Assembly: GCA_031263965.1 (NCBI GenBank)
Contig: JAISES010000469.1
Span: forward strand, 1-14,788
DNA length: 14,788 bases
Reading direction: 5' to 3'
Source: Prevotella sp.
Lineage (GTDB): Bacteria; Bacteroidota; Bacteroidia; Bacteroidales; Dysgonomonadaceae
The position numbers were made by a program, and so were the translations under genes. The notes under the pieces were generated by a model. It saw only the letters and a list, made by a program, of their open reading frames with translations. It had not been told where the DNA came from and made no database searches. How positions within the stretch are numbered: position 1 is the stretch's first letter; every line of letters starts with the position of its first letter. This document shows positions 1,816 through 12,948 of the stretch, piece after piece.

Positions 1816-2658
1816 ATGGATGAAAAAGGTACTGGATTCCGGCTCTTTTCTCTGGATAATACTGAGTTATTTCGATTCTATTCAGAACAAAAGGACAATA
1901 ATTCCCTATGCTATATTTTTTATATCGAAAGATGTACCCGGGATTTCTCGGCGGAAACGAAGGAGGCGCTTCATCTGCGGGATAATTCTATCTTGTTAAT
2001 TGACAGACATATGGTGTCTGTTTTTTATCGTTTATCTTTAAAAGGATATGCAATTATATTTTCGGAAACATTTTTTGTATCATATGAAAATAGAGTTTTA
2101 TTGAAGTTTTTATTTTTTCACAGTCAGTCGGAAGGCATTATCGATATGGGTTGTGCCAATATATATCAAAAAAAATGCATAAGTGCATTATGCAACGAGT
2201 ATTATTCTCCACACGATGATTTCCGGGATACAGCATTAAGAAACCTATTAACAAACATAGTCCTGCTCTCTCCGGCAGTGAATTATGAAGGACAATTTAA
2301 ATCGGGACATTTATTAAATTATGCCTTGGAATTTGCAGACCTGGTAGATAATTATGCTTTTTCGGCAAAGAAAAAAAACTTCTATGCAGAAAAGATCAAT
2401 ATCACTGAAAAAACCCTGGATAAATCATTGAAATGTATTTATCATAAAAAATATAAAGAAATGTTGGCAACCAGGATTATACTTGAATCGATAAGATTGC
2501 TTGTATTCGGGAATAAATCTATTACCCAGATCGCCAATGAACTGGGCTATGAAGTATCCTCTTTTATTAAACTTTTCTCACGGTGGAAAGGAATGCATCC
2601 GAAGACATTAAGGGAGAATTACCGTAAAATATTAAAAGAGATTGAGGATGGCAACTAA
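1816..2658 (+). CDS. AraC-family transcriptional regulator (first of a tandem pair)
   Basis: This 280-aa protein is a predicted DNA-binding transcriptional regulator. The C-terminal region, about residues 188-270, is a double helix-turn-helix of AraC/XylS (HTH_18) type. The second HTH, SITQIANELGYEVSSFIKLF followed by SRWKGMHPKTLRENYR, fits the family signature I..IA...G[FY].....F...F....G..P...R. The N-terminal 180 residues are not recognised; alternating beta-like segments would suit a cupin-like ligand or dimerisation domain, which is inference. The ATG at 1816 follows a short leader ORF by one base. The gene overlaps the next regulator by 11 bp, so the two are translated together. Base composition is visibly more A/T-rich than in the surface-protein genes downstream. 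Target and ligand are unknown; the nearby surface operon is a candidate target by position only. Confidence 0.85.
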   Translation: MDEKGTGFRLFSLDNTELFRFYSEQKDNNSLCYIFYIERCTRDFSAETKEALHLRDNSILLIDRHMVSVFYRLSLKGYAIIFSETFFVSYENRVLLKFLFFHSQSEGIIDMGCANIYQKKCISALCNEYYSPHDDFRDTALRNLLTNIVLLSPAVNYEGQFKSGHLLNYALEFADLVDNYAFSAKKKNFYAEKINITEKTLDKSLKCIYHKKYKEMLATRIILESIRLLVFGNKSITQIANELGYEVSSFIKLFSRWKGMHPKTLRENYRKILKEIEDGN

Positions 2659-3532
2659 AACTCCCCGTTATAGCAGCGAAGATGTATTATATTATCTGGG
2701 TATTGAAGTCAATTCTTTCGATGAATTATATTTGCAAAAAGTCGCACAGGAAACAATTTATCATTATCACAGAGCCTCTTTTTATCACATTATCCGATAT
2801 CAGGGAGAAGAGAATACCCACTATATCAAAAACAAAAAAATAAAATTCGCTGACAATTCTTTGTTAATCATTAACCATGATATTTTACAACAATATTCTA
2901 AGCACAAATGCAGCGGAGATATGGTGCTTTTCAACTTCAATTTTTTTACAAGCACAAAAGAAAAGACCGATTATCTGAACCAATGTACTCTTTTCGAGAA
3001 TGATTATCTTGTTATACCTCCGGGATCAGATAGCTTCATGTCATCTGTAGATTTGTATTTTTCTTTGATGAAAACATCAATTAAGAGAAATAAAATACAG
3101 GAAGGGGATATCGTTTTGTTACGCAATTGGCTGCATAATCTGCTGATAATCGTTGAACGTGAATACCAGCTACAGAAAAACCGGATTGATCCCATTCACA
3201 ATTCAGAGGATTGCATATTGCAATTCAAAGGATTGCTTGATATATATTATCGAAGAGAAAAACAAGTTCGTTTTTATGCAAAAAAATTAAATGTATCCGA
3301 GCGGAAATTGTCACAGATTATATATGCGGTTCATAGTATTTCGGCTAAAGAATACATTAATGAGAAAGTATTTCGGGAAGCTATCCGGTTGGTGGAAAAT
3401 ACAACACTTAATCAGGGTGAGATCGCGACTGAGTTAGGCCTCGATTTTACATATTATGTCAAATCTTTTCGTAAACGTTTTAACACAACTCCAGCTAAAT
3501 ACAGACAAAGCAAGAGGAATATTATTATTTAG
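2648..3532 (+). CDS. AraC-family transcriptional regulator (second of a tandem pair)
   Basis: This 294-aa protein has the same architecture as its upstream neighbour: an unrecognised N-terminal domain and a C-terminal AraC-type double HTH over roughly the last 90 residues (VRFYAKKLNVSERKLSQII, then GEIATELGLDFTYYVKSF with RKRFNTTPAKYRQS). The ...F.kRF.ttP..YR ending is classic for the family. I chose the ATG at 2648 over the in-frame TTG at 2642 because it is a standard codon preceded by purine-rich GAGATTGAGG; it overlaps the previous gene by 11 bp (2648-2658). The stop TAG (3530-3532) is part of a dispersed repeat beginning at 3529, so the native 3' end may have been altered when the repeat arrived. 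The pair are probably diverged paralogues and may act together. No sensor partner is present. Confidence 0.85.
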   Translation: MATKTPRYSSEDVLYYLGIEVNSFDELYLQKVAQETIYHYHRASFYHIIRYQGEENTHYIKNKKIKFADNSLLIINHDILQQYSKHKCSGDMVLFNFNFFTSTKEKTDYLNQCTLFENDYLVIPPGSDSFMSSVDLYFSLMKTSIKRNKIQEGDIVLLRNWLHNLLIIVEREYQLQKNRIDPIHNSEDCILQFKGLLDIYYRREKQVRFYAKKLNVSERKLSQIIYAVHSISAKEYINEKVFREAIRLVENTTLNQGEIATELGLDFTYYVKSFRKRFNTTPAKYRQSKRNIII

Positions 3533-3604
3533 AAACAGTTTGAATTTTATCGAAAAATATTATTATAGGATTTTGAAAAAAAACTTCTTAGCAATTTTTT
3601 TAAA
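3529..3604 (-). repeat. Dispersed repeat arm, copy 2 (inverted relative to copies 1 and 3)
   Basis: The sequence begins TTAGAAACAGTTTGAATT and ends CTTCTTAGCAATTTTTTT. It is the reverse complement of the right arm of the full element (1533-1607), with a small indel in the A-run near the middle. Its first bases supply the TAG stop of the second AraC gene. Together with copy 1 it brackets the tRNA-AraC segment as an inverted pair. Confidence 0.8.
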
Positions 3605-4035
3605 ATATACCTCAATACAAAGGCTCCGCATACTTATATAATACAAAACAGACTATTTTTTAGGATAAATAAATTGTATTAGTATTGTTTTTATGTAGTA
3701 TTTTTATGCCCTAAAATTAACACAAATAAAATGGGGATATATTCACTAAAAAAACAAATAAAATATAGTCGCACAGAAGGTAAATTCAACGGATATTCCG
3801 GATGGACTGATACTATATACACATAAAACACATACGGCAGGTAAATGCTGTAATTCAAGCTTTATAAATCATCCATAGAATTATGACTTTTTTCAGCAGG
3901 ATATTCACAAAATCCTGTGGTAATGATTCTTTGTTCCCACGATTGATGAGAAGATTGGTTTTATTTTAACCGGAATCAGGTAGATTCAACCGACAGCTAA
4001 AACAACAAAAACAAAAACATACAATAATTTTTATT
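3605..4035. other. 430-bp A/T-rich intergenic region upstream of the surface-protein operon
   Basis: No supported gene is seen. The longest ATG frame noticed is 31 codons (3731-3826), with no recognisable product. Possible regulatory features are weak: an inverted repeat CAGGAT/ATCCTG (3897-3902 and 3912-3917), and a near -7 box ATTCTTTG (3926-3933; consensus TAnnTTTG). If real, these would drive and control the gene at 4036 from about 100 bp upstream. Confidence 0.35.
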
Positions 4036-4662
4036 ATGAGAAAAATAATTTTATCTTTTGCTTTACTATTCTACATCCTGACCATGAACGCCCAAGTGAC
4101 GATAGGATCGGGAATTCAACCGAACAATGACGCCCTGCTGGATTTGAAGGAAGATGCCAACGGGACAGCCAAGAAAGGCCTGCTTATGCCAAGGGTTTCA
4201 TTAACGGCGGCCAACCTGCCGGCTCCTATGGCAAGCCATACGGCAGGAATGACAGTTTACAACCTGGCTACCTCCCCCACAGGAACGGCTCAGGAGCATT
4301 ACGTGTCTCCCGGGTTCTATTACAATACCGGCAACCGCTGGGAGAGGCTGAATATGGGTGCAACCAATTGGTTTTATATGCCTTCCGTGGCCTTCAAAAC
4401 CGACAAGGATGCTACAGGAGAGACAAAAGACCTTTACACCCTGTATAAGGAGCAATTTGCATCACCGGTAAAGGCAAGTGCGGGAGCTCCTGTGGGAGTA
4501 CCTTATATCCCTGCTGCCGACCAGTTGTACTATTATGTCACTTATGCCGATCCTGCGGTCTTTACAATCAAGAGCATCAGCAATACGGGAATTATGAATT
4601 ACGATGTGCGGGCGAGTGCAACCGAAAGTTCATATATTAATGTCGTATTTGTCCTGAAATAG
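4036..4662 (+). CDS. Secreted Bacteroidales surface protein of unknown function
   Basis: This 208-aa protein begins with a clear Sec signal peptide (MRKIILSFALLFYILTMNAQ), with cleavage most likely after NAQ. The mature N-terminus, VTIGSGIQPNNDALLDLKED, followed by KKGLLMPRVSL, is a motif I recognise from many secreted Bacteroidales proteins of unknown function (VTIGSG..P..GALLDLK...GLLLPRV). The mid region, AGMTVYNLA and PGFYYNTGNRWERLN, resembles the short beta-rich repeats seen in surface or tail-fibre-like proteins. There are no cysteines, no lipoprotein box and no visible type IX sorting domain. The ATG at 4036 is preceded by an A-rich stretch. Only 47 bp separate it from the 1073-aa secreted protein downstream, so the two are probably co-transcribed. 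Base composition is more GC-rich than the AraC genes before it. Function is unknown. Confidence 0.75.
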   Translation: MRKIILSFALLFYILTMNAQVTIGSGIQPNNDALLDLKEDANGTAKKGLLMPRVSLTAANLPAPMASHTAGMTVYNLATSPTGTAQEHYVSPGFYYNTGNRWERLNMGATNWFYMPSVAFKTDKDATGETKDLYTLYKEQFASPVKASAGAPVGVPYIPAADQLYYYVTYADPAVFTIKSISNTGIMNYDVRASATESSYINVVFVLK

Positions 4663-4709
4663 AGGGGCGGAACGAATAGCCTGTTAATAGAATAATTGAA
4701 AAAGACAGA

Positions 4710-7700
4710 ATGAAGTTTATGAAAACGATATTATACAGATTTTATCAGTTGATGTTCGGAAAGAGAAAAATCCTCTTTCTTGTTTTGCTCTCGTTGAGCT
4801 TTGTATCCGGCCTCAGGGCGCAACAAAGTCCGGGCGGTGTATCTAACGGATTGAGGCTTTGGCTGCGAAGCGACGCCCTCAGCGGAAAGATTGATAGCAG
4901 CAAGCCGAATAACGGCGCTTCCGTTACGTCGTGGAAGGATTTCAGTCAAAAAAGTAATGTCACGTATGGACTTCCTCCAACAGGAGGAACTAGCGGTAAC
5001 AGCGATATTTATTTCAGGCCTCCGACATACAAAAGCTATGACCGCGACATGAATTTCCTGCCGACAGTGCATTTCGAAAGGATTGAAGGAAGCAGTGGTT
5101 ACAGGCAATACCTGAGTGCAACAAGCGGCGTGATGGTCAACAAGTCGCCGGACACATATACCATCTTTACCGTTGCCAATATTAAATTTGATCTGGTAGC
5201 GAATACAGGATCCGCCCGGAACCCCGAGACAATTGCTTATTTTATGGGGTTCGGAGGAAACTTCATTAATGGAAGTAACAGTAACGGCAATGTAGGAAGC
5301 ACCTCGCGCCGGGCGCCGGCAGTTGGCCTTACCGGAGGACGCGGGAGCAATAACAGCTCTTCCTTTGGAAAAGGGCGCTTTTACAGTTATGATTCAGGAA
5401 ACGCTTATGACGGACAAAAAGACCTTTTTACTCCCCGGTCGACGCTTGTAGCCGTACATGAGGTAACAAAAAGCCAGTATATCCAGTACGAAGCCGATGG
5501 GCGTAAGGAAAGGATGGATAGAAGCAGCGGTCTTAGCGCGGCGCAAGTCAGAGCTATATCGAGTGATGGAGGTATTACTATGAATGGAGCGAGCATGCTT
5601 GGAGCAGGAAGCCGTCCCGCACGGAATATGATCGGATATATCAGTGAAGTGATTGTTTACGAACGGGTACTGTCCGAAAATGAGAAACAAGAGGTATATT
5701 CTTACCTGGGACTGAAATATGGGATAACTATTAGTCCTGACGGCAACAGGTTCGACTATAAGTTTTCGGATGGGACAATCCTGTGGCCCGGAAAGACGAC
5801 GGCGTCATACGGCAAGTACCATCATAATGTGGCGGCCATCGTCAGAGATGATACTCAAAGACTTTGGAACGACAAAGCACGTTCGACAGACGAATCCAGC
5901 TTTGTTACCATCGAACTTCCGGGTGCGCCTGACATTAACGGAACCAAATCCATGCTGGCCCGCGACAAGACGGCAATCGTATGGGGAGATGATAACGCTT
6001 CCCTGACTAAGAGGGTCGTACCCATTGCCAGATGTGCTCCTTACGCATATGATATCGCACGGCTATGGATGATAGACAGTCATATGATAGCCGGCAGTAA
6101 AGAGCTTACACTCAAGACTTCCGGATTCGCAGACATGTATCCCTTCAACGGAGCCGGCTGGGATGTGTATCTGATGATTGCGAAAAACGAAACCGATGCA
6201 AAAAACGGAAAATGGGACAGGACGATCCCCAGTACCTATATAAATGGTGAACAGGTATTCAAGTTCCTGCTCGATGACAATTATCCTCTCGCTTATTTTT
6301 CATTCGGCGCCTCGCCCAATGCGGTGGTATGCGCGACATGCACGTTCTCGGGAGAAGAAAAACTACTGATACAACAGAATAATACAAGTTGGGGGAGCCG
6401 TGTGAAGCTTAACGGAGGACAATCTATAACGAAAACGAATGTTAAGACCGTAAAGGGGAATTTTTCGATGGATGTGAAATTCGAGGCTGCCGCAGGTACA
6501 ACCCTGTCGGTGGATGCTCCGGCCGTACACAATGCGAACAGTCCCGTCCATCTGAAGGCCTCGGGTACAGCCAACGGTAAATCGACCATCACCTATACTT
6601 TCCGGCAACCGGCCGATGTTGAATTTGTGATCGGCGACATCGACCAGATGGAGGTTGTGGAAGTATACGGATATTGCGGAAACGACCAGATACGTCCGTC
6701 CCGGGTTGAGAAACTGCCGTTGAGCGGTCGCAAGGGACATACTTTCGATATACAGAACGTAAGCAAGATGGTCGGCAACGGAAAACAATCGCCGGGCAGG
6801 GGTAATCCCCAGGGGAAAGTATCCATCCAATTCGGCGTTCCTGTAGGAAAAGTCGTTATTGAATACACCAATACAAAGGGAGCGCTTAGATGGCTGGACC
6901 TTTATCCGTTGACCTTTTCCTGCCCTCAACAGCTTCCTCCGCCCAATGAAGCCGGTTATGCATTCGCAAAGAGAGGCCCTGCGAATGTGGATATCTGTGA
7001 AACGGTCGATTATTCGTTTACCATTATGAACGCAAATCCGGGATGCGACCCCGAGCCTGTCCGTTTCAAGGACGAGTTGCCGCAGGGAATGTACTGGGTA
7101 CCTAATTCGCTGGTAGTGAATGCCGGCCAACTGGATGCAAATTATACGTTGACGATGTCGGGACGAACCTTAGATCTTAACGGCTTGCTTCTCCCCGGTT
7201 CCGGAAGGGAAACCCACGTCAGGGCACAGGCGGCATTCACCGATGACGCTGCTACCAACACATATTATTATAATCAGGGGGAAATAACCTATACGCGTAA
7301 AGACAATAAAAAGTCCGAGACGCTTGCCAGTACGGATGCTTATTACATATCCGGAAACGATAAGCGGACGAAGACCATGGTCACCGGAACCAAGACTTAC
7401 AAATCCATTACCACGGATATGGAACTGATTCCTTCCTCATGTTTCAAGGAGGACAGGGAAGCGCAGGTCAAAGTGAAGGTACATAACCCTAACGGGCAAA
7501 TACTCAGCGATTCGAAAAAGACTCTATATTTTGAAAGCTATTTCAACGATAATTTTTCGTATAAGGCAGGTTCATTAAAGATAAACGGAGCTCCGGTGAG
7601 TGATACTGCTTCCGGCGTAACTATCGGTACAGGCGACGATCGCGGAATTATTGCCCTTGAAGGTGTATCCGCCTTTATCCTGCCGGCCGCCGGCGATATG

Positions 7701-7931
7701 GAAATCTCCTATATCATCACGATTCCGCCTAAGGCAAACCTGACCTTCGATAACACAAGCGGCAAGATAATATACGATAATATGGTTGTCGGCCATGCGC
7801 TGTCTGCAATAACAAGCGATATCTGCCTGCAAAATGCTTTCCTTAACGCCTTGGATGAATATACCGTCACTTACTGTAGTTCCCCTGAAAGTATCATTTC
7901 CAACAAGATGGTACAGCCCAGGCTGAAATAA
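4710..7931 (+). CDS. Large secreted multidomain surface protein (LamG-like N-terminal region, DUF11-like repeat region)
   Basis: This 1073-aa protein carries an N-terminal signal segment (hydrophobic ILFLVLLSLSFVSG, likely cleaved near LRAQ, residue 38). Residues about 45-340 resemble Bacteroidetes concanavalin/LamG-like domains: an opening NGLRLWLRSDALSG, then VTSWKDFSQ, and a closing strand-helix EVIVYERVLSENEKQEVYSY followed by LGLKYGITI. A cysteine pair (VCATC, about residue 538) marks a domain boundary. From about residue 750, FAKRGPANVDICETVDYSFT, then PVRFKDELPQGMYWVPNSLV, resembles the DUF11/isopeptide-type beta-sandwich repeats of cell-surface proteins. No type IX C-terminal sorting domain is visible, so anchoring is unclear. 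The partner gene 47 bp upstream is probably in the same operon. I infer an extracellular adhesin or structural role; no enzyme motif is seen. Confidence 0.75.
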   Translation: MKFMKTILYRFYQLMFGKRKILFLVLLSLSFVSGLRAQQSPGGVSNGLRLWLRSDALSGKIDSSKPNNGASVTSWKDFSQKSNVTYGLPPTGGTSGNSDIYFRPPTYKSYDRDMNFLPTVHFERIEGSSGYRQYLSATSGVMVNKSPDTYTIFTVANIKFDLVANTGSARNPETIAYFMGFGGNFINGSNSNGNVGSTSRRAPAVGLTGGRGSNNSSSFGKGRFYSYDSGNAYDGQKDLFTPRSTLVAVHEVTKSQYIQYEADGRKERMDRSSGLSAAQVRAISSDGGITMNGASMLGAGSRPARNMIGYISEVIVYERVLSENEKQEVYSYLGLKYGITISPDGNRFDYKFSDGTILWPGKTTASYGKYHHNVAAIVRDDTQRLWNDKARSTDESSFVTIELPGAPDINGTKSMLARDKTAIVWGDDNASLTKRVVPIARCAPYAYDIARLWMIDSHMIAGSKELTLKTSGFADMYPFNGAGWDVYLMIAKNETDAKNGKWDRTIPSTYINGEQVFKFLLDDNYPLAYFSFGASPNAVVCATCTFSGEEKLLIQQNNTSWGSRVKLNGGQSITKTNVKTVKGNFSMDVKFEAAAGTTLSVDAPAVHNANSPVHLKASGTANGKSTITYTFRQPADVEFVIGDIDQMEVVEVYGYCGNDQIRPSRVEKLPLSGRKGHTFDIQNVSKMVGNGKQSPGRGNPQGKVSIQFGVPVGKVVIEYTNTKGALRWLDLYPLTFSCPQQLPPPNEAGYAFAKRGPANVDICETVDYSFTIMNANPGCDPEPVRFKDELPQGMYWVPNSLVVNAGQLDANYTLTMSGRTLDLNGLLLPGSGRETHVRAQAAFTDDAATNTYYYNQGEITYTRKDNKKSETLASTDAYYISGNDKRTKTMVTGTKTYKSITTDMELIPSSCFKEDREAQVKVKVHNPNGQILSDSKKTLYFESYFNDNFSYKAGSLKINGAPVSDTASGVTIGTGDDRGIIALEGVSAFILPAAGDMEISYIITIPPKANLTFDNTSGKIIYDNMVVGHALSAITSDICLQNAFLNALDEYTVTYCSSPESIISNKMVQPRLK

Positions 7932-7962
7932 CAGGACGGCAACCATTGCGGGAGTGACAATG

Positions 7963-7981
7963 CTTAGAAACAGTTTCTAAG
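7963..7981. repeat. Tip palindrome of the dispersed repeat family
   Basis: CTTAGAAAC-A-GTTTCTAAG is a perfect palindrome with 9-bp arms around one base. The same tip (TTAGAAACnGTTT) begins copies 1 and 2 and ends copy 3. Here it stands alone, 31 bp after the large surface-protein gene, like two element ends joined or a trimmed remnant. Confidence 0.55.
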
Positions 7982-8009
7982 TAACTTTACTGAAATAAAA
8001 ACTTTCCGG

Positions 8010-8044
8010 CCGGTGGCGCGTAAATTAAATTTACACGCCACCGG
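8010..8044 (-). terminator. Terminator between convergent transcription units
   Basis: CCGGTGGCG (8010-8018) pairs with CGCCACCGG (8036-8044). After one mismatch the stem continues for 6 bp (GTAAAT/ATTTAC) around a 3-nt loop. On the minus strand it is followed by a T-rich run (complement of aaataaaaacttt, about 7993-8005), so it ends the Ibr-type operon. It may also stop transcription from the surface genes. Confidence 0.8.
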
Positions 8045-8048
8045 TCAT

Positions 8049-8708
8049 TTATTCCCTATCCGGTTTATTGTTTATTGTCCTTACCGAAAACTCCCTGTCT
8101 TTGAACAGTTCAGCAATACCGGTCAATTGTTTTAAGCGCAGTATTTCATCCATGTCCATCCCGATGTGTTTTGATATCCATGTGCCGGATTTTCCTATGG
8201 AGATCAGTTCCCGCACAATTTCCGACATCAGGGTTATGTCGTGGGTTCCCCTGGCCCTGTTGTGGCGTATGGTTGAAGCCATCCTTTCGCTTAATTCCCG
8301 TTTAGACTCACGTATGTAGGTTACAGGGAGCCTGCCCTGTGTACTTTGGGATATCTTCCGCGACCGGCGTTCGGCCTTCCTGCGGTGAAACCCGTCCACG
8401 ATACGGATTATATCCTCTTCCGGACTGCCGACAACAGGCATGGTATAGCCGTCCTCCTCAATGGACGTAATCAGCAAAGTCATTTCCGGCGGGGCTACAC
8501 TATTCGGGTTATAGTCGTTGCCTTCTACATTTCCGGATTTTTCCCATGCTACAAAGTCTACCGGATGATGTTTCATCGGGCTCACTTCATGCAACATGGA
8601 CCGGATATAATTCAGGGTATCTATTTTTTCGTCCGTGTCTTCAATGCCCTCTATATAACCGCATATATTTTTTGTTATCTGTTCGATGGTATCCTTTTCT
8701 TTTTTCAT
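8049..8708 (-). CDS. ibrB: IbrB-like ParB-fold protein
   Basis: This 219-aa protein has a ParB/sulfiredoxin-type N-terminal domain. Residues about 49-110 run from HPVDFVAWEK through DYNPNSVAPPEM to IIRIVDGFHRRKAER; the DGFHR (105-109) and RRKA residues match the nucleotide-binding G-x-x-R-x-x-A/DG-x-HR motif. A second ParB-like motif, IRHNRARG (147-154), follows, then a helix-turn-helix-like segment (about 173-197, SGTWISKHIGMDMDEILRLK). This layout matches IbrB-like proteins, encoded next to DUF3440/IbrA proteins; in E. coli the IbrA/IbrB pair activates eib immunoglobulin-binding genes. It is the last gene of a four-gene minus-strand operon, and its ATG overlaps the IbrA-like stop in ATGA (8705-8708). 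It is not a chromosome-partition ParB: no parA neighbour and different length. The molecular role is unknown; DNA binding is inferred. Confidence 0.85.
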   Translation of the reverse strand: MKKEKDTIEQITKNICGYIEGIEDTDEKIDTLNYIRSMLHEVSPMKHHPVDFVAWEKSGNVEGNDYNPNSVAPPEMTLLITSIEEDGYTMPVVGSPEEDIIRIVDGFHRRKAERRSRKISQSTQGRLPVTYIRESKRELSERMASTIRHNRARGTHDITLMSEIVRELISIGKSGTWISKHIGMDMDEILRLKQLTGIAELFKDREFSVRTINNKPDRE

Positions 8709-10012
8709 AGCATTTCTTCATATTTCCGGATTAATTCCTGTTGCCTTAATATCTGCCTCTTTGTCATCGAGAAAGACAAGGTCCTGCATGTAATATCATT
8801 TTTAAGAATCGCCATACACATACGTTTCCATGAGAGGAAATCCGTTTTGTTATCCAAGCCGGGCAATGCGTCCGGAATAGTTCTGAAACGGACGACAGGC
8901 TTATCACCCTTTCCCCGTTTACTATACTGACGGGTATTGACAATCGTATCCGGATCCAGTTCTAATATATCTTCCTCGCTGACGGGAGAGCCAATCCTGT
9001 TCCAGTAACGGATAAACTTTATGAATTTGGACGTATATATGTTGCGGGTTTCTGCCGGAAGTGTTTTCAGCAGGAACTTGCAGTAGCTTTTCCATGTATG
9101 CCCCTGAGGAAGGTTTATCTTTTTGGCGCCTATTGCTTTGGTTCCGCAATAGATATTTCCGAAGTTGGCTCCGCTGACACGGTCTACCACCTTTACCCAG
9201 GTTTCGGGCTCCAGAACTTTGAAAAGGTTTAGCCAGGCTTTTTGCTCATCCCCGTAAGGCTCGCATATTCGCATTCTGGACAAAGGTACTCCCGCCATAT
9301 AAAACAGGTCGTAGATACTGTTATAAGGTTTACTGTACTTGCCGTTGTAGGTCCAGATGTCCTCTGTGCGCCAGTCGCATATGGGATAAAAATTATAGGT
9401 ATTGTCCGATACTTCTGTTGAGTAGCTTTTATCTTTATAGGAAAGTTTATCTTTCCGTGATACGGCATAATAACGGTTCAGGCTTTCGTCTGCCCTGATA
9501 CCTATCAGGCAAGCGGTCTTTTTATTCCCGTGCCGTGCGCCGTACCAGTCACCGAATAGAGGGGTGAACTCTTCGAAAGTCATGTTTTCCCTGTAAAAAT
9601 CAAAGGGATGATTGTCCTTATTGATAATGAAGCCGTATTCCGGCATCGGGCGTACCCATTTTTCTTTTTTCGCAGGCTCCCAGAATATCCAGAACGGCTC
9701 GTACATGGAAACCGCATTGGTAGTCGTCATCGGAAGGCATACCCAATAGGGTTCTATCAGGTCAAGATTATCGAGGTACATCCGTTCAATAAAACCGGCG
9801 GTTCTTTTATAGGAAGCCTCCACATCTATATACAGCACCCCTACTTTACGCTTTATTCCGTACCGGCGCATATAGTCGAGGACTATATTGAGCATCACTC
9901 CGCTGTCTTTGCCTCCCGAAAAAGCAAGGTATATATTCTCAAATTCCGAGAATATATATCCGATACGTTCCTGAGTGACCTCATAGACATTCTTTCCCCT
10001 GTACCCATTCAT
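8705..10012 (-). CDS. ibrA: IbrA-like DUF3440 phosphoadenosine phosphosulfate reductase-family protein
   Basis: This 435-aa PP-loop protein carries the ATP-pyrophosphatase motif SGGKDSG at residues 32-38 after the strand IYLAF, the VLYIDVEASY strand, the family motif GIRADESLNR (171-180), and ICDWRTEDIW (211-220). The C-terminal half, with PYNSIYDLFYMAGVPLSRMR and SGANFGNIYCGTKAIGA, matches DUF3440/IbrA proteins. Relatives of the superfamily adenylate or reduce sulfur compounds (PAPS reductase CysH) or insert sulfur into DNA (DndC). Cysteines at 168, 212, 250, 289 and 311 could hold a metal or Fe-S site, which is untested. The start is fixed by an ATGA overlap with the GNAT-like gene (10009-10012), and a second ATGA overlap joins it to ibrB, so the three genes are translationally coupled. 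The substrate is unknown. Confidence 0.9.
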   Translation of the reverse strand: MNGYRGKNVYEVTQERIGYIFSEFENIYLAFSGGKDSGVMLNIVLDYMRRYGIKRKVGVLYIDVEASYKRTAGFIERMYLDNLDLIEPYWVCLPMTTTNAVSMYEPFWIFWEPAKKEKWVRPMPEYGFIINKDNHPFDFYRENMTFEEFTPLFGDWYGARHGNKKTACLIGIRADESLNRYYAVSRKDKLSYKDKSYSTEVSDNTYNFYPICDWRTEDIWTYNGKYSKPYNSIYDLFYMAGVPLSRMRICEPYGDEQKAWLNLFKVLEPETWVKVVDRVSGANFGNIYCGTKAIGAKKINLPQGHTWKSYCKFLLKTLPAETRNIYTSKFIKFIRYWNRIGSPVSEEDILELDPDTIVNTRQYSKRGKGDKPVVRFRTIPDALPGLDNKTDFLSWKRMCMAILKNDITCRTLSFSMTKRQILRQQELIRKYEEML

Positions 10013-10416
10013 ACGATTTTTGCCATTTTAAAATACTTCGACCATTCCTTTTGTACAAAGAAGCCCATTTCTTCAAGGAGAGGCCGGTCCGAATTGTCGG
10101 CAACGAAAGTAACGAGCGTTCCTTTCTCAATATCCATAAAAGCCTGTTCTATCAATATCCTTAACAAGTCTTTATCCTGCCAGGTAAAGTCATTGCACAA
10201 ACGGCCGTTCACAATGGAAATGAATCCGGTAACCAGATTCTTACCTTTGAGGGAAATATACCAAAGGTGGTCTTCTGTGTTTTTGAAAGGATAGCCTCCG
10301 TTCAGGCGGATAACTTCAGGGTTCATCACAAAAGGAGCTATCAGTTCATACAGGCGACTGTCGGTACCCCAGATCTTTTCTATTCTCATTTCATCATTAT
10401 CGTGTGTCATACGCAT
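10009..10416 (-). CDS. Small GNAT-like protein of the IbrA/IbrB operon
   Basis: This 135-aa protein resembles GCN5-related N-acetyltransferases in outline. Two central strands (HLWYISLKGKNLVTGFISIV, residues 50-69) are followed by a helix (LLRILIEQAF) and the typical C-terminal block LVTFVADNSDRPLLEEMGFF (101-120), ending in YFKM. The acetyl-CoA pyrophosphate motif (Q/R-x-x-G-x-G/A) expected before the central helix is not visible; the segment reads CNDFTWQDKD instead, so it may be inactive or use another ligand. The ATG at 10416 lies 4 nt after the helicase stop; a second ATG two codons later is possible. Its stop overlaps the start of the IbrA-like gene. Conserved linkage would suggest a partner or regulator of the PP-loop protein, by inference. 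Confidence 0.65.
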   Translation of the reverse strand: MRMTHDNDEMRIEKIWGTDSRLYELIAPFVMNPEVIRLNGGYPFKNTEDHLWYISLKGKNLVTGFISIVNGRLCNDFTWQDKDLLRILIEQAFMDIEKGTLVTFVADNSDRPLLEEMGFFVQKEWSKYFKMAKIV

Positions 10417-10420
10417 ATGT

Positions 10421-12076
10421 TTATAAGCTTTCTACAAATTTTCTCAGATTCTGCCGGTCTGTAAACAGCCGGTTGACCTGATTCGCCAGTTTTTCTTTGC
10501 GGGACAGGTTCTCTACAATCTTTCTGTCAATTCCGCTGTTTGTTATAAAACGTTTTACCGGAATGTCCCTGATCATGTCATTTTCCCTGATATAAGCAAG
10601 CTCCCTTCTGTAATCCCTGTATCTGAAAGAGAGGCTGAAGAAAATAATTTCGCATTGCGCCCCGACTCCTTCCATACATGTTTCCTGTATGCCTAATGTA
10701 GAAATAAGGTATTTCTTATTATTCCTCATAAATTGTGTTCTTTCGGTTTTCCTGTCGCTTTTATTTTTACCACAAAAAACAGCGCAGGATTTCCGGCCCC
10801 AGAAGCTTGTCAGCAGGTCCACTTCAAAGAGATACTTGCAAAAGACAATATATCTGGACTCTTCGGATGTATGTTTTTTCAGCAATAGTAACTTATTGGT
10901 ATTGTAATAATAATTCCTTTTATGATCGACGGAAATATAACCGCACGTGATCCGTTCCATCTCCCCCATGATCCTGAAAATGTCATATACCTGTATTTCG
11001 TATTTTTCAATGAGCAGCAGCAGTTCATTTTTTTTTCTTCTGTAAGATTCTTTCTGGGAAGGGGTCAGTTCACAGATGTAGGTCTTAACATCCGGCTCAA
11101 CATCCGGAATCTCTTTTTCATTGACCGAGTAAGTATAAGGCTCTGTCAATCCAACCAGATAAGACAGGTTTTTATACCCTAATATTTGCTTTCCGTCCAC
11201 CCCTCCGTAAATAATATGCTTCCGTGAAAAATCTTCCCAATGGTAATATCCGAGTATATCCTTATTCAGTATCCGGTATTGCATATAAACATCATGGATA
11301 TTGTTCACTATCAATGATTCGGTCATCATCAGTTTATAATTGCATTTGTCCGCTATATCCATCATGCGCCGTGAGCGTATGGCGTCGGGGGATTTGAACA
11401 GATGGCTGTCATCGATTACGAGCATAGTCCGTGTGTCCACTGACTTTAATAACTTTTCATAAGCCTGTATATTAAAACTTAAACTTTCGACAGGAATAAG
11501 GGATACCGGAAACCTTACCGCAGGCCACTGCTTCTCCATATCTTTTTTCAAATCGGGGATCTGTGCATTCGGTATGAATAAGTATAATTTGTTGATCCTG
11601 TTATTCAGGTAACGCATCCGGGCAAGGGATAGCGACAGGAACCATTTGTCGCGCCATCTCCCCGACAGTAAAACGGATACCTTCATGTTGCACAGGAAAC
11701 GAAGGGCGTTCCCATAATAAGGGATAACGTTTTCGGCCGTAGGGACAAGTTCGTCCCGCAAGCGGGTAGCCAGAGGAATCTTCCGGTATGTCAATTCGCA
11801 ATCGAATATGATTTCGTGGAACTGCTCTTCAAGTATCAGCTTAATCCGCGCAGCTTCCTGTTTGCGCCAAGAAGGGGCATAATCATTTGAAGAAACAGCT
11901 ACATTGAGCCTGAAACTGTCGTTTACAACCTCAAAATAAACTTTTATCCTTGCCTTAAAGGGGGAATAATCCAGGGTGTAGGGAACATATACACGACAGC
12001 CCATATAAATATTATGATAAAGTTTTGAACCCTTTATCCGACTTGATAATTCTACGAGAGATTGTGGTACAACCAT
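10421..12076 (-). CDS. Degenerate SNF2-like helicase/ATPase, first gene of the IbrA/IbrB operon
   Basis: This 551-aa protein lines up with SNF2-family translocases. In this numbering (ATG at 12076), the Walker B equivalent is MLVIDDSHLFKSP (218-230; DDSH for DEAH), and the motif III region KLMMTESLIVNN (248-259) replaces LTGTP..N. The second RecA-like domain shows EESRYIVFCKYLFEVDLL (405-422) and LISTLGIQETCMEGVGAQ, resembling LISTKAGGEGLNLQ. The motif VI region PVKRFITNSGIDRKIVENL has the family's V..LVT.GTIDE.I pattern. The Walker A region reads SGRWRDKWFLSLSLA, keeping only the Lys of GKT. ATP hydrolysis is therefore doubtful. An in-frame TTG at 12109 would add 11 residues, but it lies inside a TAnnTTTG promoter box, so the ATG is preferred. 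Its stop is 4 nt before the GNAT-like gene. A role on DNA beside IbrA/IbrB is inferred. Confidence 0.7.
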   Translation of the reverse strand: MVVPQSLVELSSRIKGSKLYHNIYMGCRVYVPYTLDYSPFKARIKVYFEVVNDSFRLNVAVSSNDYAPSWRKQEAARIKLILEEQFHEIIFDCELTYRKIPLATRLRDELVPTAENVIPYYGNALRFLCNMKVSVLLSGRWRDKWFLSLSLARMRYLNNRINKLYLFIPNAQIPDLKKDMEKQWPAVRFPVSLIPVESLSFNIQAYEKLLKSVDTRTMLVIDDSHLFKSPDAIRSRRMMDIADKCNYKLMMTESLIVNNIHDVYMQYRILNKDILGYYHWEDFSRKHIIYGGVDGKQILGYKNLSYLVGLTEPYTYSVNEKEIPDVEPDVKTYICELTPSQKESYRRKKNELLLLIEKYEIQVYDIFRIMGEMERITCGYISVDHKRNYYYNTNKLLLLKKHTSEESRYIVFCKYLFEVDLLTSFWGRKSCAVFCGKNKSDRKTERTQFMRNNKKYLISTLGIQETCMEGVGAQCEIIFFSLSFRYRDYRRELAYIRENDMIRDIPVKRFITNSGIDRKIVENLSRKEKLANQVNRLFTDRQNLRKFVESL

Positions 12077-12106
12077 TAGCTTATTAGTTGTATAATTGTG
12101 AGCTAT

Positions 12107-12114
12107 CAAATTTA
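12107..12114 (-). promoter_or_regulatory. -7 box of the helicase-GNAT-IbrA-IbrB operon
   Basis: Read on the minus strand, TAAATTTG matches TAnnTTTG exactly. Transcription would start about 20-25 bp before the ATG at 12076. No good -33 element is seen. The box contains the upstream TTG start candidate of the helicase and so argues against that start. Confidence 0.55.
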
Positions 12115-12143
12115 CTTAAATACAATTTGTTAAAATGAATATC

Positions 12144-12193
12144 TTACCGAATATTTGCTTTTATTAACATTGTCATAAACAATAGTTCGGTAA
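12144..12193. promoter_or_regulatory. Inverted repeat TTACCGAA-34 bp-TTCGGTAA, possible operator
   Basis: Perfect 8-bp arms lie at 12144-12151 and 12186-12193, with related A/T-rich bases continuing beyond each arm. They sit 30-80 bp upstream of the minus-strand -7 box and on the other side of a repeat arm from tdk. They could be paired binding sites for a regulator of the Ibr-type operon. Confidence 0.35.
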
Positions 12194-12243
12194 ATAATCA
12201 TTTAATGTTCACATTTGCAATGGATCTTACAAACAAGAATCAG

Positions 12244-12317
12244 CATAAAAAAATTGCTAAGAGGTCTTTTTCCAATCCCATAATAATATTTTTCGCTAAA
12301 ATTTAAACAGTTTCTAA
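12244..12317 (+). repeat. Dispersed repeat arm, copy 3
   Basis: It runs from CATAAAAAAATTGCTAAG to AAACAGTTTCTAA and matches copy 1 (1533-1607) in the same orientation, with about six base changes and no indels over 72 bp. It lies 20 bp before the tdk -7 box, so its end falls where a -33 element would be. No left arm of the full element is present here. Confidence 0.8.
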
Positions 12318-12337
12318 ACAGACTTATATAAAAATTG

Positions 12338-12345
12338 TACTTTTG
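12338..12345 (+). promoter_or_regulatory. Bacteroidetes -7 box for tdk
   Basis: TACTTTTG fits TAnnTTTG and lies 27 bp before the tdk ATG. The repeat end GTTTCT (about 12310-12315) sits 22-27 bp upstream and might contribute a weak -33 element. Confidence 0.55.
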
Positions 12346-12372
12346 CTTAGAAAAAAAATGCAATGAAAAAAC

Positions 12373-12912
12373 ATGGGTAAAATTATTTTCAGATATGGCG
12401 CTATGGGCTCCAGCAAGTCCGCTCACTTATTAATGACAGGATATAATTTTGAAGAAAGAGGAAAGACTGTCGTATATGCAAAATCGAGTATAGACACAAG
12501 GGATGGAGAATATATCATTACCCGGTCGGGGATACCTCCTAAGAAAAGTTTAACCATTCCTGAAAATTCAAACTTGTCGCTACTATTTGGCAATCTTCGA
12601 AACCAGTCCGTAATTATGATCGATGAATGTCAATTTTTATCTGAAGATGACATTAACCAGTTAAATAAACTAAGCATAGAGAAAGATCTGGTGATAATTT
12701 GTTATGGATTAAGAACCGATAGCGACAGCAATCTCTTTTTAGGATCTAAAAGGCTGTTTGAAATAGCAGACGTAATAGAAGAAATAAAGTCCTGCTGTTC
12801 CAGATGTGCAAGGAAAGCTACCATGAATTTATATTTAGGAGCGAAAAAAGACGTGGTTCTTATCGGTGATAGTGGTTACTTACCTATATGCAGGGAATGC
12901 TATTTTAAATAG
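12373..12912 (+). CDS. tdk: Type II thymidine kinase (TK1-like), unusual subtype
   Basis: This cytoplasmic enzyme phosphorylates thymidine with ATP in pyrimidine salvage. The 179-aa sequence shows the family hallmarks: a P-loop GAMGSSKS (9-16), the strand VIMIDECQF (80-88) with catalytic Glu85, the lasso-loop start YGLRTD (111-116), and two zinc-binding Cys pairs, C142/C145 (CSRC) and C173/C176 (CREC). The length is somewhat short (about 190-200 is usual). The P-loop has Ser where most members have Gly before Lys; I recall this form from Clostridia-type thymidine kinases rather than the usual Bacteroides Tdk, so acquisition by transfer is plausible. A -7 box lies 27 bp upstream, just after a dispersed repeat arm. 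The mannosidase gene follows after 36 bp without an evident promoter, so the two may share a transcript. Confidence 0.9.
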   Translation: MGKIIFRYGAMGSSKSAHLLMTGYNFEERGKTVVYAKSSIDTRDGEYIITRSGIPPKKSLTIPENSNLSLLFGNLRNQSVIMIDECQFLSEDDINQLNKLSIEKDLVIICYGLRTDSDSNLFLGSKRLFEIADVIEEIKSCCSRCARKATMNLYLGAKKDVVLIGDSGYLPICRECYFK

Positions 12913-12948
12913 ATAAATAAGAGTTTTAACGAAATAAGTAGATACGTA

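Follow-up and report, generated by a model that had tools for sequence, protein, structure and literature searches.

We analyzed a 14,788-nt contig of Prevotella sp. from the family Dysgonomonadaceae (GCA_031263965.1, JAISES010000469.1), hereafter called the window, which encodes an SNF2-like protein (H), a GNAT-like protein (G), IbrA (A) and IbrB (B) side by side in one cassette. These four genes form a real, single operon and a recurring unit, in which IbrA and IbrB are a nearly constant pair and H, G and, elsewhere, an ectoine-synthase-like cupin (E) are swapped around it. New here is a cassette helicase that, by our motif patterns, has lost its ATPase motifs. Tentatively, we read the window operon as the domesticated, chromosomal version of an IbrA-IbrB module for nucleic-acid or nucleotide modification that phages spread, with exchangeable partners and two non-catalytic subunits; the chemistry that we assign to the module is putative. 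The nearest named relative of the window in the collection searched is D. hofstadii.

The operon and its core pair

The four same-direction genes described in the first-pass annotation of this DNA, with one 4-nt gap and two overlaps, were all found on the minus strand, at distances (H/G/A/B) of 4, -4 and -4 nt (Table 1). Its PP-loop gene (SGGKDSG) and ParB-fold gene (DGFHR) are borne out by both motifs and by family matches. IbrA matches DUF3440 (PF11922, E=2.9e-54) and PF01507 (E=2.1e-13), IbrB matches the ParB-like family phrog_2159 (E=5e-62), and the two are an IbrA/IbrB pair in the sense of a PP-loop and DUF3440 protein adjoining a DGxHR ParB-like protein. The terminator it proposed coincides with a strong hairpin. 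As for its -7 box, TAAATTTG is present, but it is weak evidence because the pattern TAnnTTTG is no commoner in the window than chance predicts (15 occurrences against 14.4 expected).

Table 1. Features of the operon and its borders in the window
Feature	Position	Strand	Remarks
H, SNF2-like protein, 551 aa from ATG	10421-12076	minus	562 aa if the TTG start at 12109 is used
G, GNAT-fold protein, 135 aa	10009-10416	minus	predicted structure, relatives
A, IbrA: PP-loop ATPase (SGGKDSG) and DUF3440, 435 aa	8705-10012	minus	family scans
B, IbrB: ParB/sulfiredoxin-like, DGFHR and RHNRARG motifs, 219 aa	8049-8708	minus	profiles
Block homologous (~88% nt) to cassettes L025 and L026	8046-12179	minus	nucleotide comparison
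-7-like Bacteroidetes box TAAATTTG	12107-12114	minus	weak: pattern no commoner than by chance
Terminator hairpin and subsequent T-rich run; the flanking genes converge	8010-8044	minus	-31.7 kcal/mol, z=-6.18
Thymidine kinase flank, homologous to genome G009	12325-12913	plus	no cassette beside the G009 copy

The pair was followed through four samples: the best 80 of 333 confirmed loci on genome contigs and the best 80 of 308 on viral contigs, both chosen via IbrA alignment, so that shares within them are not natural frequencies; 29 further loci from a survey of 393 Bacteroidales genomes, 30 of which have IbrA (the window's own included); and six loci in phage records, examined for H and G beside A. 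Locus L030, which lies on the same contig as L026, is absent from the trees and yet counted among the 80. IbrB adjoins IbrA in 79/80 genome-contig, 79/80 viral and 27/29 Bacteroidales loci, and the motifs of both proteins are nearly invariant.

In PHROG, IbrA-like proteins are labeled phosphoadenosine phosphosulfate (PAPS) reductase, in the class 'moron, auxiliary metabolic gene and host takeover'. In a structure comparison, FAD synthase, CysD and CysH structures are among the closest folds of IbrA. The label, the PF01507 domain and the CysH folds would fit an auxiliary role in sulfur metabolism, with IbrA as a PAPS reductase (viral cysH). We consider this very improbable. The catalytic motif of PAPS reductases, ECGxH, is absent from all 197 IbrA rows, and this together with the near-constant IbrB partner argues that the label is wrong for the IbrA family.

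Several small proteins near ibrAB resemble parts of IbrA. One stand-alone protein matches DUF3440 (L120:3562-3873; relatives in 14 viral loci, itself included), and two more match the IbrA profile weakly (L265:7225-7533 and L266:6549-6839). They could represent a detached recognition domain.

Recurrence and exchange of partners

The helicase and GNAT genes, on whose co-occurrence with ibrA/ibrB in other genomes the proposed unit depended, were both found to recur there. Dysgonomonas shows the order H-G-A-B, as do some other Bacteroidota. Viral contigs, phage records, Listeria and proteobacterial metagenome-assembled genomes (MAGs) have H-A-G-B or H-A-B, and 23 of the 29 further Bacteroidales loci have G-A-B. 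The partners are unevenly distributed: H stands beside A in 25/80 genome-contig, 23/80 viral and 4/29 Bacteroidales loci and in 5/6 phage records, and G in 6/80, 10/80 and 25/29 loci and 0/6 phage records, respectively. Both together were found in 5/80, 6/80 and 2/29 loci and in none of the six phage records, and loci without any tested partner number 54/80, 21/80 and 2/29. Mapped on a tree of the 197 IbrA rows, H requires nine changes and G 13, which argues that both partners were repeatedly gained or lost.

Among the phages, Streptococcus phages CHPC877 and PY3 and Lactobacillus phage CR28 have H-A-B, Fusobacterium phage phiFN37 has A-B-x-H, and CHPC1230 carries A-B but no H. The unverified 3.2-kb record L024 is close to a Listeria chromosome, its proteins being 93-94% identical to those of L069, and may not be phage. 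The GNAT of L110, used as a tblastn query against the phage records, gave no match. A fusion was seen in a Bacilli MAG (L033:1-636), where an open frame at the contig end joins the last 58 residues of H to G and is followed by A and B; it is left outside the H counts.

Further genes accompany these loci. Three protein families of unknown function, represented by L180:5937-6260 (phrog_5809), L021:3356-3754 (phrog_27058) and L169:4995-6056 (phrog_16123), lie near H, mostly just upstream of it; they occur in 9, 8 and 13 loci, respectively, all of them with H, and are perhaps a further phage component. Another protein of unknown function near ibrAB (L150:9054-9485, 143 aa) belongs to a family present in 33 viral loci, none with H. 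In phiFN37 (L023:6289-11039), a second ParB-like gene close to ibrAB adjoins a queuine tRNA-ribosyltransferase gene. One Dysgonomonas genome carries a repeated G-A after H-G-A-B (L029:4377-10274), with a recombinase-like gene, named from its sequence, nearby; the same genome holds a relative of H with intact Walker A and no IbrA within the 18-kb locus (L028:8243-9880).

The third partner was found in viral loci. The cupin lies within 3 kb of A in 32 of the 80 viral loci and is fused to IbrB in 15 of these 32. Two E proteins match the ectoine synthase family PF06339 (E=2.9e-45 and 3.3e-31), and the others were found with a profile built from these two. No E was seen together with H (0/23) or with G (0/10) in the viral set. 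Open reading frames of 123-163 aa beside A in many viral loci had been considered as GNATs, and the two tested are EctC-like. In Mycobacterium phage Gaia and Pseudoalteromonas phage XCL1123, neighbors annotated as 'PAPS reductase' and 'ectoine synthase/ParB multidomain protein' match the IbrA, IbrB and cupin profiles. Gaia gp102 (L266:2743-3639), annotated as a helicase, does not match the H profile. Since an enzyme of this kind stands beside or fused to IbrB, a pure transcription activator becomes less likely, and the finding points to an enzymatic pathway with exchangeable tailoring steps.

Loss of ATPase motifs in H

The 'helicase-like' label given earlier holds for descent but not for activity. 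H matches the phage helicase family phrog_62 (E=9.9e-28) and an SNF2-related domain (E=1.9e-5, 0.5 bit under the Pfam cut-off), and has an N-terminal extension of ~120 aa. Motifs I, II and VI, scored by fixed patterns on an alignment of cassette helicases, all fail in the window: GRWRDKWF replaces GTGKT in motif I, motif II reads DDSH, and motif VI is without its arginine pair. An active SNF2 ATPase has Walker A, DExH and the motif VI arginines, and the window H, with none of the three, is predicted to be non-catalytic.

Walker A is intact in the H of 22/23 viral contigs (the remaining one is truncated, hence 22/22 testable), of 5/5 phage records, of 5/5 further genome contigs (two of them from Listeria, with one on a record whose title says chromosome) and of six Bacteroidota loci (L028, L032, L076, L079, L220 and L222), of which L076 fails in motif VI. 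L032 has recombinase-like and phage-like neighbors, as read from their sequences. Seven distinct Dysgonomonas-type loci, the window among them, have lost Walker A, and so have 14 of 15 proteobacterial MAG loci (the remaining one is truncated, hence 14/14 testable), 12 of the 15 being titled Alphaproteobacteria and three just 'proteobacterium'. Of those 14 proteins, seven keep DES in motif II and none keeps the motif VI arginines. On the IbrA tree (FastTree), the lost state takes two changes, and the closest companions of the Dysgonomonas clade, L032 and L222, both have an intact H. By these motif patterns, H has lost its ATPase motifs in two independent lineages, one Dysgonomonas-type and the other proteobacterial (mostly Alphaproteobacteria).

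The ratio of nonsynonymous to synonymous substitution rates (dN/dS) of H is 0.136, 0.157 and 0.130 in three close Dysgonomonas pairs, which indicates purifying selection there, as is also seen for G; in the same pairs it is 0.078-0.090 for A and 0.080-0.172 for B. The mean ratio of H to A distances is 1.94 (18 pairs) and 2.70 (85 pairs) for inactivated H against 1.61 (91 pairs) for intact H, the intact pairs mixing exchanged partners.

Such values bear on the idea that H and G are decaying passengers on their way out and that IbrAB alone matter, which would account for dN/dS of H and G above that of A, for H evolving faster than A, and for the 77 of 197 rows without any of the three partners; it would also fit L246, where H lies in two frames, and the related GNAT-A-B locus L248 with a broken ibrA. 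We think it quite unlikely, as the dN/dS of H falls within the range of B, a motif in G is conserved (see below), and a long H frame is kept in 14 proteobacterial loci, such frames being partly open by construction because the search targeted open frames.

A GNAT fold without its coenzyme A loop

G has no Pfam, NCBIfam or PHROG match up to E=1. Its AlphaFold2 model (predicted local distance difference test score 92.7) nevertheless has the GNAT fold: among the 50 PDB rows shown, almost every title names an acetyltransferase, the best TM-scores, normalized to the model, are 0.76 (1xeb_A) and 0.72 (ElaA), and PseH, which ranks first by E-value, has a TM-score of 0.54. Its relatives in L110, L179 and L037 match Pfam GNAT families. 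The 'GNAT-like' assignment is thus upheld by the predicted fold, but the coenzyme A (CoA) loop is gone. GNAT acetyltransferases bind CoA by a loop with the motif R/Q-x-x-G-x-G/A; in the window, R-x-x-G-x-[GA] is replaced by a conserved CNDFTWQD, and the acetyltransferase motif test fails. Among 73 relatives, the pattern CNDF[TA]Wx[DN] occupies the loop position in 62 of the 63 nearest and is absent from all 10 remote ones, which argues against random decay.

Among 48 GNAT rows (including L030, both L029 copies and the second upstream GNAT of L241), R-x-x-G is present in eight: L032, L037 and six viral loci. The seven loci with an inactivated H are all without the CoA loop, and so are six of the 10 loci with an intact H and G, so that the two losses are not tightly tied. 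The four-component machine proposed in the first-pass annotation therefore stands as a recurring unit of genes, but not as four active parts, the H motifs and the CoA loop of G having been lost.

Genomic sites and neighboring genes

The cassette moves as one block. Of positions 7701-12400, only the block listed in Table 1 matches the Dysgonomonas genomes of L025 and L026, and these copies and that of the window occupy unrelated sites. The neighbors differ as well: hisS-like in L025, mdh-like in L029 and ilv-like in L031, all named from their sequences. Genome G009, which is 55% complete, shares synteny with the window from 12325 on through its thymidine kinase and a GH125 gene, and has no cassette next to these genes; the other flank of G009 differs, so that one cassette border is bounded, between 12179 and 12325. 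Between L025 and L026, the synonymous divergence (dS) is 0.16 for IbrA and 0.54 for H, a contrast that suggests recombination within the cassette.

Eight of the 15 proteobacterial copies adjoin the same aldo/keto-reductase-like gene; six of the eight are also near lpxK-like and kdtA-like genes and five near a mutL-like gene. L044 and L047 have another site in common, and the remaining proteobacterial copies lie elsewhere.

These sites matter for a role in defence, which the first-pass annotation had suggested and PADLOC does not bear out: the four cassette proteins give partial weak matches (DrmD, DpdE, DndC, BrxP), ten flanking proteins give weak matches for three, and no system emerges, nor a defence island. 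A chromosomal copy with inactive H and G could in principle serve defence or superinfection exclusion by poisoning the phage complex as a dominant negative, or by sensing phage. Intact H in phages, with independent inactivation in two bacterial-genome lineages, and a compact cassette at differing sites in relatives would suit this proposal. We judge it unlikely in view of the PADLOC result and of the eight proteobacterial copies at one place beside ordinary chromosomal genes, unlike a defence island, the other seven being elsewhere.

The immediate neighborhood of the window cassette (1816-7931) contains AraC-type regulators and secreted-looking proteins. Relatives of a 208-aa secreted-looking protein are found near L026 and, with weaker pairwise similarity, near L027, and a FimA family protein adjoins L025; surface-type genes thus occur close to four of the seven Dysgonomonas-type loci (window, L025, L026 and L027). 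AraC-type HTH_18 domains were found in 6 of 26 flanking proteins scanned, a biased count, as 10 of the 36 listed were dropped by hand (thymidine kinase, GH125, hisS-like, mdh-like, ilvD-like, a recombinase-like gene and others). Around G-A-B loci, the top family is a rubrerythrin-type domain, in 6 of 77 neighbors, at least some of them from one genus; this count is biased as well, 12 of the 89 proteins having been dropped by hand (some shorter ones and all those of L229 and L248).

In a close rival to the modification module, IbrA-IbrB would be mainly a transcription activator. IbrB would bind DNA and IbrA would produce or sense a nucleotide, the inactive H and G would act as protein-protein adaptors, and surface or fimbrial genes would be under the control of the cassette. 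The annotation usually given, co-activator of prophage gene expression, and the wording 'prophage transcriptional regulators' in the part of PMC8813620 consulted agree with it. The HTH_18 domains next to the cassettes do too, and the loss of the ATPase and CoA motifs would fit an adaptor role. However, the surface-gene adjacency was spotted post hoc and members of the secreted-looking family are frequent, with 5, 19 and 24 matches in the three genomes; no surface family is prominent among the 77 G-A-B neighbors; IbrA retains its catalytic motifs; and an EctC-like enzyme fused to IbrB would be hard to account for in a pure activator. We regard this alternative as doubtful, but it keeps weight because of the work on eib genes and the surface-type genes near those four loci.

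Comparison with known systems

IbrA/IbrB of E. coli ECOR-9 and YbdN/YbdM of K-12 likewise combine a PP-loop and DUF3440 protein with a ParB-like protein. The former reportedly came to notice as activators of eib surface-protein genes. No SNF2, GNAT or cupin partner is known to belong to the E. coli pair; the partners and their inactivation are an addition in the window cassette. The Dnd system resembles the cassette in having a PP-loop enzyme and a ParB-superfamily protein, DndB, that carries a DG-x-HR-type motif. It differs in that family scans found no DndA, DndD or DndE among the four genes, and the DndC profile matches only in part (29.2 bits for the curated family against a cut-off of 290.4).

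YbdN has been named PAPS reductase/DUF3440 in the part of PMC9068703 consulted. In Listeria, lmo1309-lmo1311 are tabulated as IbrB, IbrA and SNF2 in the portion of PMC5736727 consulted, and lmo1309-1310 appear as a putative toxin-antitoxin pair, by association, in that of PMC7020466. The Listeria loci L067 and L069 share the order H-A-B with the cassette family and differ from the window in that no GNAT was found and the ATPase motifs are intact. According to an excerpt of PMC12839542, Dpd includes a ParB-like ATPase with a DNA-modifying enzyme, DpdB reportedly coupling DpdA to DNA, type 4 BREX has a PAPS-reductase-like protein (BrxP), and an inactive SNF2 domain is described in PglZ. The cassette resembles Dpd in joining a ParB-like protein to a putative modifying enzyme and BREX in its PAPS-reductase-like protein, and unlike them it has no TGT, PglZ or BrxC homologue among its four genes by family scans. 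Gaia and XCL1123 have a cupin in place of SNF2 and GNAT (the stretches retrieved match neither of those profiles), and their records give no function. The four-gene set and the EctC-IbrB link found no description in the excerpts of open-licence full-text literature consulted.

Proposed mechanism and its weight

In the modification module that we tentatively favor, IbrA would use ATP to activate (adenylate) a group, like FAD synthase and CysD, which are among its closest structural relatives; adenosine phosphosulfate (APS) and PAPS reductases bind adenylated products. IbrB, a nucleotide-binding ParB-like protein, would couple this chemistry to DNA, a part that DpdB reportedly plays for DpdA. 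In phages, H would open access to DNA, and G or E would tailor the attached group through amine or acyl chemistry, yielding a modified nucleic acid or nucleotide. Transfer would have run from phage to chromosome. In the host copy, IbrA and IbrB would still be catalytic, with H and G kept as non-catalytic subunits serving as scaffold, substrate recognition or brake. A structural role for an inactivated H is plausible given the precedent of the inactive SNF2 domain in PglZ, as described in the excerpt of PMC12839542.

A more specific version, which we hold to be rather doubtful, takes IbrA-IbrB as the core of a viral hypermodification system in which the SNF2 motor, GNAT and EctC-like cupin would build an amino-acyl or cyclised group, and which bacteria would have domesticated at least twice, with a non-catalytic helicase and, here, a non-catalytic GNAT as well.

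Several observations weigh against the modification module. Its substrate and product are putative. Five Bacteroidota cassettes or H genes (L028, L032, L079, L220 and L222) retain all three motifs and the H of both Listeria copies is intact, so that bacterial residence does not require motif loss. The dN/dS of proteobacterial H is 0.08-0.34, with dS saturated and three of six pairs without a value for some gene, and decay would give the same pattern of faster evolution of inactivated H relative to IbrA. The CoA loop is absent from 40 of the 48 GNAT rows, four viral ones among them besides the window; acetyl transfer may for this reason never have been the main role of the GNAT-like partner. 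All 32 cupin loci fall into one IbrA clade (one change, support 100), E having been acquired once, and a Fisher p of 5e-7 accordingly overstates independence. Just two IbrA cysteines are more than 90% conserved, which speaks against a four-cysteine Fe-S site of the kind that some sulfur-inserting relatives have. What is best known of IbrAB, the reported activation of eib in E. coli, is a gene-expression phenotype. Finally, DpdB is held dispensable in some clusters in the part of PMC12839542 consulted.

The probable mislabeling of the IbrA family as PAPS reductase bears on claims about viral sulfur metabolism. If the hypermodification version were true, viral family members labeled cysH or ectC would belong here and not to sulfur or osmolyte metabolism. 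The two independent lineages that retain an SNF2 protein without ATPase motifs in the same operon offer natural separation-of-function cases, and the exchangeable partners, foremost the EctC-like enzyme fused to IbrB, turn the IbrA/IbrB puzzle into a concrete chemical search in phages that infect laboratory hosts. The cassette thus hints at an unstudied DNA- or nucleotide-modifying pathway.

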